Part shown: in pieces, positions 3-12,310 of the stretch
Numbering within the stretch: position 1 is the stretch's first letter
Layout of the letters: each line of letters begins with the position of its first letter
Program-made: the position numbers and the translations under genes
Source of the DNA: an uncultured Spirochaetia bacterium
Lineage (GTDB): Bacteria; Spirochaetota; Spirochaetia; SZUA-6; Bin103
Length of the DNA: 64,000 nt
Direction of reading: 5' to 3'
Assembly (NCBI GenBank): GCA_958296075.1
Contig: CATQHW010000002.1
Location: forward strand, 496,001 to 560,000
Notes under the pieces: model-generated
Told to the model about the DNA's origin: nothing
The model's database searches: none
Seen by the model: the letters and a program-made list of their open reading frames with translations, nothing else

Positions 3-188
3 CACGTCTTCGGGGTGGCGCTGGGCGTCGCCGAAGGGGTGGTCATCGGCGCCGTCGTGATCGCCGGCATGCACGCCCAGCCGTGGTTCGAGGTCGCCGC
101 GATCCTGGAGGGGAGTGTGGCGGCGCAGATGGCCGAGCAGATCCTGGGGATCGGCTCGCCAGCGGTCGAGGGCGCGATCGATGTTTGA
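3..188 (+). CDS. CvpA-like membrane protein, C-terminal end (partial)
   Basis: The window opens inside this gene; about 61 C-terminal residues are visible and end in TGA at 186-188. The visible part has a glycine- and valine-rich membrane helix (VFGVALGVAEGVVIGAVVIA), then PWF and a short amphipathic tail. This fits the end of CvpA/colicin V production family proteins, which finish with such a helix followed by a PWF-type segment. Its last 8 bases overlap the ATG of the next gene. Position just before holB, a PAS kinase and an NtrC-type regulator agrees with the order I recall from Borrelia and Treponema, which supports the call. Too little is visible to be sure. Confidence 0.5.
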   Translation, partial: HVFGVALGVAEGVVIGAVVIAGMHAQPWFEVAAILEGSVAAQMAEQILGIGSPAVEGAIDV

Positions 189-1341
189 CGGCCTCATCGG
201 CCACGACGTCACCGCCGCGCGCCTGCGTGACGCGGTGCGGGACGGATCGCTCGCGCCGGCCGTCCTGTTCGAGGGGCCGCCGGCCGCCGGCAAGCTGACC
301 GCGGCGCTGGAGCTTGGCCGTGCGCTGAACTGCGCGGCCGGCGCTCCGCCGGATTGCCGCTGCGCGTCGTGCGGGAACCACCGGGCGCTGCAGGACCCGC
401 ACGTGCTGACGGTGGGCGGCCGCGACTTCGCCGCCGAGATCGCCGCCGCGTCGGCAGCGCTCAGCCGCTCCCCCGCGCCTGCGTCCCGCGAGCTGTTCGT
501 GCGCTCGGTGCGCGCCCTGACCCGCCGGTTCGACGACCTGCTATGGACCGGCTCCGAGCCACGACTGCGCCGCCTGCGATCCCGCGTGGCCGACCTGGAG
601 GACCGCCTGGAACGGTCGCGCACCGGCGGCGCGGCGGACGCCGCGGCCGAGCTGGCGCGCGCGGCGAACCTGGAGGCGGTATCGGTGAACGCCGTGCGCG
701 CGATCGAAACCTGGGCGCGGGTGGCGACCCCGGGGGTCAAGGTGATCATCGTGGAGGTGCGGCGCTGGCTGCCGGAGCCGGCATCCAACGCGCTGCTGCG
801 CACGGTCGAAGAGCCGCCGCGGCGCACCCACTTCATCTTTACCGCCCCTTCATCGCAGGCGCTCATCCCCACCCTGCTGTCGCGGCTGGCGCGCTATCGG
901 TTCGGCGACCGGAGTCGGGCCGATCAGCGCCGCGTGATCGCGGAGGTGTTCGGCGACCCGCAGGCCGCCGCCACCACGATAGCCGACTACCTCGCCGCCG
1001 CCGGCGCGGCGGTCGCGTCCGCCGGCGCATCCGACGATCTGCGGCGCGCTGCGGCGCGGTTCTGCGATGCTGCGCTGGCGGGCGGCGCGGACGCCGCCGC
1101 CGTCCCGACGGCCGACCGCGACGCGGGTTTCGCGTTCCTGCAGGCCTGTTCCGAGCGCCTGCGAGCCCTGCTCAGGTCGCCGGCGCGCGCCGCCGAGGTG
1201 CAGCGCATCGAGCGCTGGTACCGCTTTCTCGACGACGCGGCATGGAGGGTGAAGACCATGAACATGAGCCCGGAGGCGACCATCGCCGACATCGCGCGCC
1301 GCATGGCTGCCGGCGGCGATCCGCCGATGAGGCGCTGGTGA
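181..1341 (+). CDS. holB: DNA polymerase III subunit delta' (HolB-like)
   Basis: Clamp-loader ATPase-fold subunit (386 aa) that helps place the sliding clamp on primed DNA. The start is ATG 181 (MFDGLIGH), which overlaps the previous stop; an upstream GTG would run far into that gene. Seen: a P-loop-like GPPAAGK near residue 35, a cysteine cluster (CRCASC) near residue 60 like the Zn module of DnaX/HolB proteins, and the typical family run SNALLRTVEEPP followed by THFIFTA and LLSRLARYRF, the sensor-1/SRC-like region. The middle (residues 80-170) is alanine/arginine rich and poorly conserved. It is translationally coupled to the kinase gene downstream (4-base GTGA overlap). Function as a clamp-loader subunit is known for the family; delta' rather than tau is inferred from length and the lack of a tau tail. 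Confidence 0.88.
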   Translation: MFDGLIGHDVTAARLRDAVRDGSLAPAVLFEGPPAAGKLTAALELGRALNCAAGAPPDCRCASCGNHRALQDPHVLTVGGRDFAAEIAAASAALSRSPAPASRELFVRSVRALTRRFDDLLWTGSEPRLRRLRSRVADLEDRLERSRTGGAADAAAELARAANLEAVSVNAVRAIETWARVATPGVKVIIVEVRRWLPEPASNALLRTVEEPPRRTHFIFTAPSSQALIPTLLSRLARYRFGDRSRADQRRVIAEVFGDPQAAATTIADYLAAAGAAVASAGASDDLRRAAARFCDAALAGGADAAAVPTADRDAGFAFLQACSERLRALLRSPARAAEVQRIERWYRFLDDAAWRVKTMNMSPEATIADIARRMAAGGDPPMRRW

Positions 1342-2497
1342 GCCGGTTCTATCAGAAGGCGATCGAACGGCTTGATCGTCTCGACCCGATGCAGGCCGGC
1401 ACGCTGCTGCGCGGTCTGGCGGCGGACAACGACCTGTTGGCGATGGTGTTGGAGTCGATGACCGACGGCATCATCGTCCTGGACGAAGCGCACGGCATCC
1501 GCCTGATCAATAAGGCGGCCGAGCGGCTGCTGCCGTTCGCGGCCGACGAGCTGACCGGCCGCGCGGTCTGGCAGGTGATCGGCGACGAACAGGTGGCCGC
1601 GTTCCTGCACGACACCCTGATCGGTTCCGATCGGGTCCTGGACGGCGAGTTCACCCTGGAGGGCGCCCATGCCGCAACGCTGGAGATCACCATCGTGCCG
1701 CTTGTGCGCGAGCGACGCATCGAGGGCAGCCTGGTGCACGTGGAAGACATCACCGAGCGCCGTGCGGAGGCGGCGCGGCTGCGCCGGGCGGAGCACCTGG
1801 CGTCGATGACCACGCTCGCCGCCGGCGTCGCGCACGAGATACGCAACCCCCTCACGTCGATGAGCATCCACCTGCAGCTGATCCAGCGCGCCCTGCGCGG
1901 CCGCCAGACGGCGCCGGCCGAGATCGACGAGAGCCTGCACACGATGACCGAGGAGATTCGGCGGCTCAACAAGATCGTGGTCGATTTCCTGTTCGCGGTA
2001 CGGCCGATGAACTCGGAGCTGCGCGAGGGCGACATCAACGACGTGCTGCGCCCCCTGCTGGCGTTCCTTCGCCCCGAGCTGAGCGCGAGCGGCATCGAGG
2101 TGGTCGAGAAGCTGGCGGCGCGGTTGCCGCCGGCGCAGATCGACGAACGTCTGCTGCGCGAGGCGCTGCTGAACATCGTCAAGAATGCCCAGGAGGCGAT
2201 GGCGGCGGGCGGCACGCTGACAGTCGGCACCGTCCTGGAGGGCGAGCGCGTCTGCATCACGGTGCGGGATACCGGCACCGGCATCCCCGACGACATTACC
2301 GATAAGATATTCGAGCCGTACTTCACGACTCGGGAGTTCGGCTCCGGGCTCGGCCTGACGCTCACCTACAAGATCATCAGGGAGCACGCCGGCGACATCG
2401 AGGTCTCCTCCAAGCCGGGGGCCGGCACCACGTTCCGCGTGCGCATTCCGGTCTCCCCGCGCGCGCGGCGTATGTTGGAATATCGGGCGGTAGCGGG

Positions 2498-2501
<4 letters not shown>
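1338..2501 (+). CDS. Cytoplasmic PAS-domain sensor histidine kinase (NtrB/Hk2-like)
   Basis: Two-component sensor kinase of 387 aa. GTG 1338 overlaps the holB stop by four bases (GTGA), which sets the start. A PAS domain spans about residues 35-140 (VLESMTDGIIVLDE..., ending in VEDITER). The HisKA box is AHEIRNPLTS with phospho-acceptor His166. The HATPase domain has an N box (NIVKNAQEAM), G1 (DTGTGIP), F box (FEPYFTT) and G2 (GSGLGLT). No membrane segment is visible, so it is soluble like NtrB and Borrelia Hk2. The next gene overlaps it by ATGA and encodes an NtrC-type regulator, its obvious partner. The PAS ligand cannot be told from sequence. Confidence 0.93.
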
Positions 2502-3862
<1,361 letters not shown>

Positions 3863-4424: not shown

Positions 4425-5759
4425 ATGGCACCGCCGTTTGAGCCGCCGCGCGACATCTGGAAGGTCAATCAAAGCTTACAGCTTGATGAGCACCTCGACG
4501 GCGACCGGGATCCGCGTTGGGTCGATACCGAAGCGGCGCGCGGTGAGTACAGCCTGAACCTACTCTGTAAGGCGCTGGGCGTGGACCGCGCCCAGCGAAG
4601 ATTGACGGCGCCCGAGCGCGGTTACTACCTGTTCTGCGGCCACCGCGGCTGCGGAAAGAGCACCGAGCTCCGCCGTATCGTCCATGAGCTCGACCACAAG
4701 GCTCTCTATTACGTGGTGTTCGCTGACGCGGCGCAAGAACTCGACGTCAACAACCTGCGGTACCCGGATGTCCTGCTTCACCTCGCCAGCAAGCTCATCG
4801 CACGACTCGCTAGTGACAATATTCGTGTTGAGTCGGTATATCTGGACAAGCTCCAGGACTGGTTTACGGAGCGCGTCGAGAAGACGGAAAAGACCAAGGA
4901 GTTTGCGCTGGAAGCCAAAGCCGGCGCCAAGGCCAATGTCGGACTTCCTTTCCTGGCTAGTGTATTCGCTCATATCAGCACCGCATTCAAGACCAACACC
5001 ACACACAAGGACGAACTGAGACATACATTACGGAACCATTTCACTGACTTCTCGGAAGGGTTCAATCAACTCATCACCGTCGCCGAAGATAGGAAGATAG
5101 GTATAGGACGCCGTATACTGTTCGTAGTCGACGGCACCGATCGTCTCGGCGGCGTTGACGCGCAAGCGTTCTTCATGGCGGACGTGCATCAACTGCAACA
5201 GGTGCTCGGAATGTTCGTGTATTGCGCACCGGTTAACCTGACTTACGAAGGGAATAACGTCGGGCAGAACTTCAATAGCATCTTTCGCTTGCCGATGATC
5301 AAGGTTGCGAACCGCGACGGCTCGCGGCATGAAGAAGGGTACACGGCGATGCGCGATATGCTGCATCGCCGCGCCGCGCCCGAACTGTTCGACGCCGGCG
5401 TCGCCGACCGCCTGATCGCGCACAGCGGCGGTCATCCCCGTGATCTTCTGAGACTCCTCATGAACGCCTTCAAGCACGCCGAGCACGACCGTTTCGATGA
5501 TGCTTCAGCTCATCGAGCGGTGCGTGAATTGGCGACAGACTACCGGCGCATCCTACGGTCGGACGATTATCAACTCCTGGCAAGCATCGACGCCGATACC
5601 CCTCCGCGGTCAGGCTCCGAGCGGACTCGCGAGCTGCTCTACAACTTGGCTCTGTTTGAGTACAACGACTACAACTTCTATCGGCGCAGCCATCCGGTAA
5701 TACGTACCACACAGGAGTACGCGGCGGCGCAACCAGACGTCACCGACTCCGATGAGTGA
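4425..5759 (+). CDS. P-loop ATPase of a two-gene ATPase/TPR unit
   Basis: 444-aa single-domain ATPase. Walker A is GHRGCGKST at residues 72-80 and Walker B ILFVVDGTD at about 231-239; the sequence between is helical and partly charged. The C-terminal part has SGGHPRDLLRLL, typical of the sensor/lid region of AAA/STAND-like NTPases. No DNA-binding motif or membrane segment is clear. RBS GGAGGG lies 6 bases before ATG 4425; a weak TTGACG (-35-like) lies about 40 bases upstream. Base composition is clearly AT-richer than the flanks, suggesting transfer. It overlaps the next gene by 8 bases (ATGAGTGA), so the two products are likely made together and act together. I recall similar ATPase/TPR pairs in cyanobacteria; the function is unknown. 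Confidence 0.8.
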   Translation: MAPPFEPPRDIWKVNQSLQLDEHLDGDRDPRWVDTEAARGEYSLNLLCKALGVDRAQRRLTAPERGYYLFCGHRGCGKSTELRRIVHELDHKALYYVVFADAAQELDVNNLRYPDVLLHLASKLIARLASDNIRVESVYLDKLQDWFTERVEKTEKTKEFALEAKAGAKANVGLPFLASVFAHISTAFKTNTTHKDELRHTLRNHFTDFSEGFNQLITVAEDRKIGIGRRILFVVDGTDRLGGVDAQAFFMADVHQLQQVLGMFVYCAPVNLTYEGNNVGQNFNSIFRLPMIKVANRDGSRHEEGYTAMRDMLHRRAAPELFDAGVADRLIAHSGGHPRDLLRLLMNAFKHAEHDRFDDASAHRAVRELATDYRRILRSDDYQLLASIDADTPPRSGSERTRELLYNLALFEYNDYNFYRRSHPVIRTTQEYAAAQPDVTDSDE

Positions 5760-7773
5760 AGCCGACACTTGGCCTCTCCGTTCGGAACATTCCGGCGCGC
5801 TGCTGCGGCTTCGCCGGCTGGTAGAAGACAGGCGGTCGTTTTCCCTCTGCTTCCTGACCTATTCCGATAGTGCCTATCGCGACACCGCGGCCACCTTTCT
5901 GGAGACGCTGCTGGGAGCGCGGCTGCGCGTGGTCATAGATCGCGCTACCCGAATCGGCACCGAAGAGCTGTTCGAGCGACTGCGCGATGCTGCGCACGAA
6001 GGTCCGGTACAGGTCAGCGGCCTGGAACGGTGGCCGGATGGATTGGATGACCTGTTGCAGCGGCTGAACTATCGCCGGGAAGCGCTGGCCGCGCGTTGCC
6101 AGCGCCCCTTGTTGGTGTGGATTCGGACCTGCGACGTGAATGCGGTGGCGATCGGCGCCGCGGATCTCTGGGCGTGGCGCTCCGGCGTGTTCGATTTCAC
6201 GCTGCCTGCGTCCACCGATCTTCCTGATTTGCAGCAAACCCGAATCAACCGCAATTCCGCTGAGGCACCCAAGCGTCAGGAGCGTTTGACGGAATTGAAA
6301 CGGCATCTCCGCACGCGCTTGGCATTGCGTCCAGTAGACGTGGACTTGCTGATCGAGCTCGGTGATTTGCAGCGATCCATCGGCCAACCGGATGATGCGA
6401 AGGACTCCTACTCGAGTGCTCTGACGGCACTGTCAGACATGGACGACCACCGGCGCCTAGTCATCGCTCAGGGTCGGATCGCCGACATCCTGCAGACCCG
6501 CGGCGACCTGGACGCGGCGCTGCGCATTCGTACGGAAGAGGAGATTCCCGTCTACGAACGCCTTGGGGACGCGCGCTCGGTGGCCATTACCAAGGGCCGG
6601 ATCGCCGACATCCTGGAGGTCCGCGGCGACCTGGACGCGGCGCTGCGCATTCGCACAGAGGAGGAGATTCCCGTCTACGAACGCCTTGGGGACGCGCGCT
6701 CGGTGGCCATTACCAAGGGCCAGATCGCCGACATCCTGGAGGTCCGCGGCGACCTGGACGAGGCGCTGCGCATCCACAAGGAAGAGCTACTGCCGGTGTT
6801 CAAACGCCTTGAGGACGAGCGCTTGGTAGCCATTACCAAGAGCCGGATCGCCGACATCCTGCAGACGCACGGCGACCTGGACGAGGCGCTGCGCATTCGC
6901 ACAGAGGAGGAGATTCCCGTCTACGAACGCCTTGGGGACGCGCGCTCGGTGGCCATTACCAAGGGCCAGATCGCCGACATCCTGGAGGTCCGCGGCGACC
7001 TGGACGAGGCGCTGCGCATCCACAAGGAAGAGCTACTGCCGGTGTTCAAACGCCTTGAGGACGAGCGCTTGGTAGCCATTACCAAGAGCCGGATCGCCGA
7101 CATCCTGCAGACGCACGGCGACCTGGACGAGGCGCTGCGCATCCGTACGGAAGAGCTACTGCCGGTGTTCAAACGCCTTGGGGACGTGCGCTTGGTGGCC
7201 ATTACCAAGGGTCGGATCGCCGACATCCTGCAGGCGCGCGACGACCTGGACGCGGCGCTGCGCATTCGTACGGAAGAGCTACTGCCGGTGTTCAAACGCC
7301 TTGGGGACGTGCGCTTGGTGGCCATTACCAAGGGTCGGATCGCCGACATCCTGCAGGCGCGCGACGACCTGGACGCGGCGCTGCGCATTCGTACGGAAGA
7401 GGAGATTCCCGTCTACGAAGGCCTTGGGGACGTGCGCTCGGTGGCCATTACCAAGGGTCGGATCGCCGACATCCTGCAGGCGCGCGGCGACCTGGACGCG
7501 GCGCTGCGCATTCGTACGGAAGAGCTGCCCGTCTATGAACGCCTTGGGGACGCGCGCTTGGTGGCCATTACCAAGGGCCGGATCGCCGGCATCCTGCAGG
7601 CGCGCGGCGACCTGGACGCGGCGCTGCGCATTCGAGTCGAAGAGGAGATTCCCGTCTATGAGCGTCTGGGGGATGAGCAATCGCTTGCCGCCGCCCAGTT
7701 GCAGATCGAACGACTACGCTTGCTCACCACAGGGGTAACGCTGCACCACCAAGGCACGACGGCTGGGCGGTGA
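5752..7773 (+). CDS. TPR-repeat protein with novel N-terminal domain (partner of the upstream ATPase)
   Basis: 673-aa protein. Residues 1 to about 200 form a globular domain (FLTYSDSAYRDTA, RPLLVWIRTCD, then LWAWRSGVFDF) that looks like a P-loop-fold relative without a Walker A; I recall the WxWRSGVF motif from N-terminal domains of cyanobacterial TPR proteins. A degenerate TPR follows (DLLIELGDLQRSIG). From about residue 242 there are ten tandem TPR-like units of 41 residues (one of 40) with consensus RIADIL..RGDLD.ALRI...E...PV..RLGD.R.VAITKG. Units are nearly identical at DNA level. ATG 5752 overlaps the ATPase gene. The array probably forms a superhelical ligand- or protein-binding surface. 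Effector activity, if any, should be in the N-terminal domain. No catalytic motif is recognised. Confidence 0.82.
   Translation: MSEADTWPLRSEHSGALLRLRRLVEDRRSFSLCFLTYSDSAYRDTAATFLETLLGARLRVVIDRATRIGTEELFERLRDAAHEGPVQVSGLERWPDGLDDLLQRLNYRREALAARCQRPLLVWIRTCDVNAVAIGAADLWAWRSGVFDFTLPASTDLPDLQQTRINRNSAEAPKRQERLTELKRHLRTRLALRPVDVDLLIELGDLQRSIGQPDDAKDSYSSALTALSDMDDHRRLVIAQGRIADILQTRGDLDAALRIRTEEEIPVYERLGDARSVAITKGRIADILEVRGDLDAALRIRTEEEIPVYERLGDARSVAITKGQIADILEVRGDLDEALRIHKEELLPVFKRLEDERLVAITKSRIADILQTHGDLDEALRIRTEEEIPVYERLGDARSVAITKGQIADILEVRGDLDEALRIHKEELLPVFKRLEDERLVAITKSRIADILQTHGDLDEALRIRTEELLPVFKRLGDVRLVAITKGRIADILQARDDLDAALRIRTEELLPVFKRLGDVRLVAITKGRIADILQARDDLDAALRIRTEEEIPVYEGLGDVRSVAITKGRIADILQARGDLDAALRIRTEELPVYERLGDARLVAITKGRIAGILQARGDLDAALRIRVEEEIPVYERLGDEQSLAAAQLQIERLRLLTTGVTLHHQGTTAGR
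6475..7707 (+). repeat. Ten tandem 123-bp in-frame repeats (one of 120 bp)
   Basis: The codons for ADIL recur at 6481, 6604, 6727, 6850, 6973, 7096, 7219, 7342, 7465 and 7585, that is eight intervals of 123 bp and one of 120 bp (a GAG/ATT codon lost in unit 9). Two unit flavours exist: one ending EEEIPVYERLGDARSV and one ending EELLPVFKRLxDxRLV. Units 3+4 and 5+6 start as the same 246-bp doublet, so the array grew by unequal exchange of doublets. Synonymous positions are also conserved, which points to recent duplication or gene conversion rather than selection on protein alone. Confidence 0.95.
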
Positions 7774-8025: not shown

Positions 8026-8292
8026 CTAGGCGACGACCGCCAGCACGTCGGCGGCTTTGATGATGAGTTGCTCCTCACCTTCCACCTTGATCGTGGTGCC
8101 CGCGTACTTGTCGTAGATGATCTTGTCGTCCACCTGGACCTTGATCTCGTCCTTGTCGTCGCCGATCGCCAGTACGACCCCTTCCTGGGTCTTCTCCTGG
8201 GCGGTCTGGGGAATGTAGATACCGCCCGCGGTCTGCGTCTCCGCGTCGACAGTCTTGACCAGAATTCTGTCACCGATGGGCTGAACCTTCAT
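8026..8292 (-). CDS. groES: Co-chaperonin GroES
   Basis: Small Hsp10 ring subunit (88 aa) that caps GroEL for protein folding in the cytoplasm. The fold is complete: start MKVQPIGDRILVK, mobile loop (TQTAGGIYIPQTAQEK with the IYIP-type GroEL-binding tripeptide), and the end EEQLIIKAADVLAVVA. RBS GAGGAA lies 6-8 bases before the ATG. A sigma-70 promoter is found upstream (8368-8396) and a hairpin terminator downstream, so it appears monocistronic. groEL is not adjacent; separate groES and groEL loci are known in spirochaetes. No CIRCE element (TTAGCACTC-N9-GAGTGCTAA) is present in the leader. Confidence 0.97.
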   Translation of the reverse strand: MKVQPIGDRILVKTVDAETQTAGGIYIPQTAQEKTQEGVVLAIGDDKDEIKVQVDDKIIYDKYAGTTIKVEGEEQLIIKAADVLAVVA

Positions 8293-8396: not shown

Positions 8397-8462
8397 GACC
8401 GAACGAGATTCGGAGCGCGCGGCGCCGATTCGGGTAAATCTGACACGGATTGATGCCGATAA

Positions 8463-8488
8463 TGGGTCATCCGGGTCATTGTGACCCA
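8463..8488 (+). promoter_or_regulatory. Candidate enhancer dyad (activator site) upstream of the sigma-54 promoter
   Basis: TGGGTCA (8463-8469) and GGGTCA (8473-8478) are followed by TGACCCA (8482-8488); the core GGGTCA-TTG-TGACCC is a perfect dyad. It lies about 120 bp upstream of the expected start of the sigma factor transcript, where sigma-54 activators usually bind. Binding by the NtrC-type protein of this window is inferred only. Confidence 0.5.
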
Positions 8489-8573
8489 CCGCGATGGCGC
8501 GCCAGCGCCGGCGTTCAAAATAAAGTACAGCAACCGTAACGAGATACGGCTATCGGGAGCGGCGTCGCCAAGG

Positions 8574-8589
8574 TGGCACGCATCTTGCT
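8574..8589 (+). promoter_or_regulatory. Sigma-54 (-24/-12) promoter of the sigma factor gene
   Basis: TGGCACG-CATC-TTGCT matches the RpoN consensus TGGCACG-N4-TTGCW at every fixed position, with GG (8575-8576) and GC (8587-8588) separated by exactly 10 bp. The start of transcription should fall near 8600, about 15 bases before ATG 8615, with a GGAACGAG ribosome site between. This rules out GTG 8573 as the start codon because it would lie upstream of the transcript. Confidence 0.85.
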
Positions 8590-8614
8590 TGATAGTGTTG
8601 CAAGGAACGAGCAC

Positions 8615-9463
8615 ATGCCAAGAGAGACATCCACCGACGACAGCGTCCTCGCGCGGTACCTGCGCGAGATCAATCGCATTCCGTTGCTCACCAGGGACCA
8701 GGAGGAGCGCTTGGCCCGCAAGGCGGCGGCCGGCGACAACGGGGCCAAGGAGGGCTTGGCGCGCGCCAACCTCCGGTTCGTGGTCAACGTCGCCAAGCGG
8801 TATCAGAATCAGGGGCTGCCGCTTCTGGACCTGATCAGCGAAGGGAACATCGGGCTGCTGCACGCCATCGAGCGCTTCGACGTGGACAAGGGGTACCACT
8901 TCATCTCGTACGCCGTGTGGTGGATCAAGCAGGCGATCCTGAAGGCGGTGTGCGAACAGTCCCGCCTGATCCGCCTGCCGCTGAACCGCGCCAACGAGTT
9001 GGTGCAGATCGACCGTGCGCGCAAGGAGTTGCAGAGCGAGACCGGCAAGGAGGGCAGCGCCGAGCAGGTCGCCCAACGGCTGCAGCTCAAGCCGGCGCTG
9101 GTCGAGGAGCTGACCTCGATCTCCCGCGAGCTGGTCTCGCTCGACGCGCCGATGTACGCCGATTCCGAATCGGCCAACCGGTCGGAGTTCGTGGAGGACC
9201 GGAAGGGAGAGGCGCCGGACGAAAGCGCCCTGATGCGGTCGCTCCGCGAAGACATCGCCACCGTGCTCCGCTCGCTCACCAGCCGCGAGGCGGACATCAT
9301 CAAGCATCGGTTCGGGCTGGAGGGGCGCCGCCCGCTCTCCCTGAAGGAGATCGGGCTTCGCTACCATCTGACCAAGGAGCGCATCCGTCAGATTGAGAAG
9401 AAGGCGCTTCGCCGGCTGCGCCACCCGTCGCGGGCGCAGCACTTGGAGGCTTACGTAGCCTAG
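8615..9463 (+). CDS. Sigma-70 family RNA polymerase sigma factor (RpoS/RpoD-like, no region 1.1)
   Basis: 282-aa sigma factor. It starts at region 1.2 (DSVLARYLREINRIPLLT) without region 1.1, then region 2 (LRFVVNVAKRYQNQG, GNIGLLHAIERFD, the -10-reading YHFISYAVWWIKQAI), region 3 and region 4 (LTSREADIIKHRFGLEG, helix-turn-helix KEIGLRYHLTKERIRQIEKKALRRL). The short length, about that of Borrelia RpoS, and the sigma-54 promoter point to an alternative sigma of the RpoS kind rather than the housekeeping factor; short primary sigmas exist, so this is an inference. ATG 8615 is chosen because it follows the predicted transcript start and the GGAACGAG ribosome site. It is divergent from groES. 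Confidence 0.92.
   Translation: MPRETSTDDSVLARYLREINRIPLLTRDQEERLARKAAAGDNGAKEGLARANLRFVVNVAKRYQNQGLPLLDLISEGNIGLLHAIERFDVDKGYHFISYAVWWIKQAILKAVCEQSRLIRLPLNRANELVQIDRARKELQSETGKEGSAEQVAQRLQLKPALVEELTSISRELVSLDAPMYADSESANRSEFVEDRKGEAPDESALMRSLREDIATVLRSLTSREADIIKHRFGLEGRRPLSLKEIGLRYHLTKERIRQIEKKALRRLRHPSRAQHLEAYVA

Positions 9464-9598: not shown

Positions 9599-12310
<2,712 letters not shown>

Follow-up and report, generated by a model that had tools for sequence, protein, structure and literature searches.

In the Rrp2-RpoN-RpoS cascade of Borrelia burgdorferi, a sigma-54 (RpoN) promoter of the -24/-12 type precedes rpoS, the gene for a group-2 sigma factor. This cascade has so far been regarded as an adaptation of Borrelia. 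According to a study of 2019, B. burgdorferi "has appropriated" RpoN for the transcription of rpoS (PMC6719511), and a broad comparative study gives the link between sigma-54 and sigma-S as an example from Borrelia (PMC3162934). The activator Rrp2 switches on Borrelia rpoS without an enhancer (PMC1976401).

Two other known systems share features with the locus described here. In Escherichia coli, a -24/-12 match, TGGCACAGTTGTTGCT, lies upstream of rpoH, likewise a gene of the sigma-70 family. The sigma-54 promoter of rpoH is one of several promoters there, and its product, unlike the sigma factor of this locus, is a heat-shock sigma of another family. Two-component sigma-54 activators (bEBPs) of the NtrC/AtoC type have the order receiver, AAA+ domain with GAFTGA and Fis-type HTH, and an enhancer about 100 bp upstream. 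The Rrp2-type regulator and the putative enhancer of this locus agree with this, but its dyad was found, in the DNA examined, almost only before one gene, which encodes a sigma factor.

The window, i.e. the whole 64-kb stretch of DNA that was analysed, comes from an uncultured, high-GC member of the Spirochaetia. Its features are as follows.

181-1341, forward strand: DNA polymerase III delta' (Pfam DNA_pol3_delta2), a synteny marker before the kinase-regulator pair, in the same place in Borrelia
1380-2501, forward strand: Hk2-type soluble PAS histidine kinase (Pfam PAS, HisKA, HATPase; 5' end uncertain), 33% identical to its Borrelia counterpart at the hk2 position
2498-3862, forward strand: Rrp2-type sigma-54 activator with receiver, AAA+ domain with GAFTGA and Fis-type HTH (Pfam), 50.7% identical to its Borrelia counterpart at the rrp2 position
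8026-8292, reverse strand: groES, divergent (Pfam Cpn10)
8472-8488, forward strand: putative bEBP enhancer CGGGTCA-TTG-TGACCCA, its first base 102 bp upstream of the -24 element (about -128 to -112)
8574-8589, forward strand: sigma-54 (RpoN) -24/-12 promoter element of the sigma gene (exact match, conserved before orthologues, RpoN logo)
8600, forward strand: predicted transcription start, from RpoN promoter geometry, counted from the C of the -12 GC at 8588
8602-8606, forward strand: ribosome-binding site AAGGA (from sequence), 8 nt before the ATG
8615-9463, forward strand: group-2 sigma-70 factor of the P1 clade, 282 aa (Pfam; below the NCBIfam cut-offs for RpoS and RpoD; tree)
9599-12310, forward strand: pyruvate phosphate dikinase gene (ppdK), a conserved neighbour that comes directly after P1 in 40 or more of 80 related loci

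The locus thus resembles the B. burgdorferi cascade in the RpoN promoter before a group-2 sigma gene, in its Hk2 and Rrp2 orthologues and in the order delta'-kinase-regulator, which is common to the window and the Borrelia genome. It differs in that its effector is, by the tree, a P1 sigma and not RpoS, and in that P1 has a conserved putative enhancer. The P1 system therefore lacks one defining feature of the cascade, RpoS as effector, and is best described as running parallel to it, as another arm of an ancestral circuit.

The -24/-12 element and RpoN

The element at 8574-8589 on the forward strand, TGGCACGCATCTTGCT, reads TGGCACG-CATC-TTGCT and matches TGGCAC-N5-TTGCW with an exact GG-N10-GC core (GG at 8575-8576, GC at 8587-8588). 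The exact RpoN consensus that a preliminary description of this DNA had placed before a sigma factor gene was thus confirmed. The ORF has 282 codons and ends at 9463, and its ATG, at 8615, is separated from the element by 25 nt (26 bp in that description). The predicted +1 at 8600, followed by AAGGA and the ATG, is a coherent 5' end. The strict pattern TGGCAY-N5-TTGCW has its sole match in the window, both strands included, at this element.

Upstream DNA of P1 genes, and of genes of a sister clade, S3, that includes Borrelia RpoS, was collected from genomes sampled evenly across the class Spirochaetia and scored over the 11 bases of TGGCAY-N5-TTGCW, a site being called at 10/11 or better. Such a site precedes 97/102 distinct P1 genes and 77 of the 79 distinct S3 genes, and none was called in the reversed upstream DNA of both together (0/184). 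Among named GenBank loci, from which eight misclassified sigma genes had been removed, the strict site occurs in none of 492 other gene upstreams. The column information gives the textbook RpoN logo, with surrounding columns near background, and positions that played no part in selection are conserved as well: R after TGGCAC carries 1.47 bits and T before it 0.78 bits. Related genomes are not independent samples; the elements nonetheless stand within otherwise diverged upstream DNA. Many of the sampled genomes are metagenome-assembled, and the Borrelia- and Treponema-like identities used here were inferred from evidence such as gene order and base composition.

Among P1 relatives outside the class, the close ones (53-59% identity) mostly retain the site, and more distant ones (about 50% identity, 330-370 aa) mostly miss it and form a natural negative control. 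A few P1 copies are without the element. Genomes of family f2 (L165, L166, L167, L170) have two P1 copies, which are divergent and about 4-5 kb apart in two genomes; the copy nearest the window's protein has lost the site and the other retains it. In two T. denticola-like genomes (G048 and G068; L160, L182, L276, L342), TAGCA replaces TGGCA at the P1 and S3 promoters alike, a parallel shift, and the RpoN DNA-binding domains score lower there too. One Borrelia-type rpoS promoter (L338, G126) has, unlike its relatives, a degenerate site, TGACATAATTGTTGTA.

The further marks of a sigma-54 promoter, namely rpoN in the genome, bEBP genes and a conserved upstream putative enhancer, are likewise found at the level of sequence. 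The assembly (4.05 Mb, 97.7% complete) contains an intact rpoN of 458 aa, on which the preliminary description had made its proposal depend. Since rpoN is nearly universal in the class (126/128 sampled Spirochaetia genomes), its absence cannot serve as a test. In the phylum, the best-assembled genome with no match to rpoN (G206) is without the site, and so are the rpoN-bearing members of its family. The preliminary description had also looked to other -24/-12 sites in the genome, and these exist: the exact matches, with that of the window, number five in all. One, a perfect site 27 bp before amtB, adjoins a bEBP gene, and RpoN is therefore very probably active in this genome, amtB being a classical RpoN target. 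Another perfect site precedes an RtcR-like sigma-54 activator gene (L129:4481-6303; G000 C1, about 76-78 kb), beside which a divergent ORF possibly encodes a CARF-type protein. The two remaining matches, both inside ORFs, look like chance.

The fate of rpoN is different in a Borrelia-type genome (chromosome of 917,330 bp), where the gene is broken (G043:C1:472400-472828) and rpoS retains its -24/-12 site (L163:16225, reverse strand). A truncated rpoN has been published for New World relapsing-fever species, B. turicatae among them (PMC8316131).

The P1 sigma factor and its relation to RpoS

Pfam recognizes in the 282-aa product a sigma protein with regions 1.2, 2, 3 and 4, in which region 1.1 is absent; it therefore belongs to group 2. 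This architecture, a length of about 280 aa and, in spirochaetes, an RpoN-type promoter are common to P1 and the RpoS/S3 clade, but the two are separate. The protein reaches 255.8 bits with the RpoS model (TIGR02394), whose cut-off is 378.7, and 259.6 bits with the RpoD family, whose cut-off is 354; Borrelia RpoS itself, with 214.8 bits, also falls below the TIGR02394 cut-off. In a tree of 61 sequences, which has several long branches and bootstrap values not fully settled, so that deeper placement is unsure, P1 forms one group (support 95/85) and S3, with Borrelia RpoS, another (94/97). All relatives found for the window's sigma gene are from Spirochaetota; the primary sigmas of Bacteroidota look similar to P1.

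Both P1 and S3 occur in about half of the 128 Spirochaetia genomes sampled. P1 was found in none of the nine Borrelia-type genomes sampled (family f24), and S3 was not found in the genome of the window. Above the cut-off for sigma region 3, this genome encodes only a full-length RpoD, a FliA-like sigma and the sigma of the window. The third sigma of the genome (C4:37418) was considered as an S3 member and rejected, being a FliA-like gene behind flhA. The RpoD is a separate protein of about 580 aa; had the window's sigma been the only primary sigma, this would have counted against the preliminary description. In another genome (G038), a very divergent RpoS-like sigma gene (L124:2279-3070) has a perfect -24/-12 site; like Borrelia rpoS, it adjoins tsaD and a polysaccharide deacetylase-like gene.

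The sigma gene of the window might be driven by an ordinary sigma-70 promoter, the -24/-12 match being accidental. With 5 occurrences in the genome (4.05 Mb), the exact pattern TGGCAC-N5-TTGCW is barely commoner than the reversed one, which has 3, so that a single match would say little by itself. Such an accident is nevertheless extremely improbable, given the class-wide conservation of the site with its clean controls and a promoter scan in which no sigma-70-type promoter appeared on the forward strand upstream of the sigma gene. The conservation settles the element as real and supports very well the proposal of the preliminary description that RpoN controls a second sigma factor; from sequence, the gene is almost certainly switched on by RpoN. 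A different question is whether the gene and Borrelia rpoS are orthologues, with the site belonging to the RpoN-RpoS cascade itself. Both group-2 sigmas are under -24/-12 elements and hk2-rrp2 is nearby in both genomes, as such orthology would have it, but the separation of P1 and S3 in the tree, the many genomes that carry both genes, the identity of just 32% to Borrelia RpoS and the score below the RpoS cut-off make it very improbable. The name "RpoS-like", used in the preliminary description, is thus rejected in the sense of orthology by the tree and the family cut-offs, and the sigma is assigned to P1.

Upstream dyads and the choice of activator

A dyad, TGTGTCA-N3-TGACACA, was found from words upstream of the -24 element of P1 genes. 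With the variants TGGGTCA/TGACCCA, its class-wide form is TGKGTCA-N3-TGACMCA. Of 96 distinct P1 upstreams, 75 have it with 12/14 matching bases or more, where local shuffles predict 0.15; its start is mostly 100-130 bp, and typically about 115 bp, before the -24 element. In named GenBank loci, a set that overlaps the class set but was fetched separately, 56/71 upstreams match it in 11/14 bases or more, while shuffles gave 1.8 and gene bodies 0/71. Of the 83 strong matches in the 2.07 Mb of DNA fetched (duplicates included), 82 lie just upstream of P1, and the one exception is at a contig edge, beside a -24/-12 site. With up to 2 mismatches allowed, 0.29 matches are expected in the 64-kb window, and the copy at 8472-8488 is the sole one. 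The P1 dyad is apparently an enhancer. Two other inverted repeats, CCGTA-N6-TACGG (8534-8549) and CCGAA-N5-TTCGG (8399-8413), were considered as activator sites and set aside, as the class-wide motif pointed elsewhere.

S3 promoters have a dyad of their own, TGTATA-N6-TATACA, about 111 bp upstream in 44/75 of them (5.2 expected), e.g., in L160 and L216; the P1 dyad is present in none of the 75. The S3 dyad is absent from the Borrelia S3 promoters examined, where 8/12 matching positions equal background. This absence fits the enhancer-independent activation of rpoS (PMC1976401), and Borrelia appears, from its promoters, to have kept one arm of the circuit and lost its enhancer.

The Hk2 and Rrp2 orthologues are encoded 4.7 kb upstream of the sigma gene. 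An Rrp2 orthologue occurs in 58/60 genomes of the class. In 33 genomes it shares a contig with P1, and in 26 of these the two are on the same strand, with the regulator gene 3-12 kb upstream. Its HTH contains the segment IGRKTLHRK in seven of eight aligned regulators, the Borrelia protein having IGRKTLHNK. The Rrp2 orthologue is thus a fairly likely activator of the P1 sigma gene, an assignment for which linkage is the evidence in a genome that encodes six strong bEBPs. One of the five others may bind the dyad instead, at a gene that would still depend on RpoN, with the linkage of hk2-rrp2 and P1 being a matter of gene order without regulation. The number of strong bEBPs, the enhancer independence of Borrelia Rrp2 at rpoS (PMC1976401) and the roughly 3-12 kb of other genes between the two loci are consistent with this. 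It is nonetheless rather unlikely, since the same-strand linkage persists across many families in which the order of other genes changes, the Rrp2 orthologue is about as widespread as P1, and the Fis-type HTH with its conserved segment is retained. If the Rrp2 orthologue does drive P1, S3 would probably have another activator, because its promoters carry a different dyad. Borrelia has nonetheless kept Rrp2 in the absence of P1, and both points count against the assignment.

Among the neighbouring genes, ppdK may be co-transcribed with P1, functionally linked to it or a target of P1. The divergent groES has a sigma-70-type promoter of its own, TTGACG-17-TATATT, at 8396-8368 (promoter scan). Between the regulator and groES, a TPR protein of 673 aa that contains many almost identical tandem repeats (5752-7773) and an adjoining AAA ATPase gene (4425-5759) have no relative in 80 related named loci.

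A proposed two-arm circuit in Spirochaetia

The activation of the group-2 sigma gene by RpoN from about 8600, through a phosphorylated bEBP on the dyad that is most likely the Rrp2 orthologue, and as one arm of an ancestral two-arm circuit, is held with good confidence. A signal would be passed by the Hk2-type kinase (1380-2501) to the Rrp2-type bEBP, which, once phosphorylated, would bind the dyad at 8472-8488. From there it would loop to the RpoN-RNA polymerase waiting at 8574-8589 and open the promoter at the expense of ATP, so that transcription could begin near 8600. The new P1 sigma would then redirect RNA polymerase to its own regulon.

The ancestral circuit would have consisted of two arms, one leading from RpoN to the P1 sigma and the other from RpoN to the S3 sigma, which in Borrelia is RpoS. 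Judged from the promoters, the RpoN-to-sigma cascade is class-wide, and what is known from the Lyme spirochaetes is one remnant of an old circuit. A fuller history has about an even chance of being right. In it, the ancestor of Spirochaetia, possibly of Spirochaetota, had an RpoN hub with two parallel group-2 sigmas, each with its own enhancer and probably its own bEBP, and Hk2-Rrp2 was at first the near single-target activator of P1. In Borrelia, P1 and the enhancers would have disappeared and Rrp2 would have been redirected to rpoS, enhancer independence being a derived remnant, and the P1 gene of T. pallidum would have kept its promoter and lost its enhancer. The suggestion of the preliminary description that the cascade is older or wider than the Lyme spirochaetes therefore holds across Spirochaetia, but the evidence stops at the spirochaetes; the genome, which it had called distantly related, belongs to the same class as Borrelia. 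That description had overlooked the putative enhancer at 8472-8488, the Hk2 and Rrp2 orthologues at about 1380-3862 and the presence in Spirochaetia of two sigma genes in parallel under RpoN promoters.

In a T. pallidum-like genome (1.14-Mb contig), P1 has a perfect -24/-12 site and is without the P1 enhancer dyad. By its position, this gene would be TP1012. The TP1012 sigma factor has been detected in the T. pallidum proteome (PMC5015957), and the regulation of sigma factors in T. denticola has been described as unclear (PMC7586716). A literature search, whose scope did not extend to subscription papers, found no report of RpoN control of the P1 sigma or of the class-wide pattern.

The same promoter logic thus stands before two sigma genes across Spirochaetia. 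Because it extends over the class, with its many environmental lineages, the circuit is probably older than parasitism. The findings provide a first hypothesis on how the P1 sigma of Treponema, TP1012 of T. pallidum included, is regulated, and the class-wide pattern suggests why Rrp2 of Borrelia works without an enhancer. They also offer free-living model organisms in which the original signal and regulon of the circuit may be studied.
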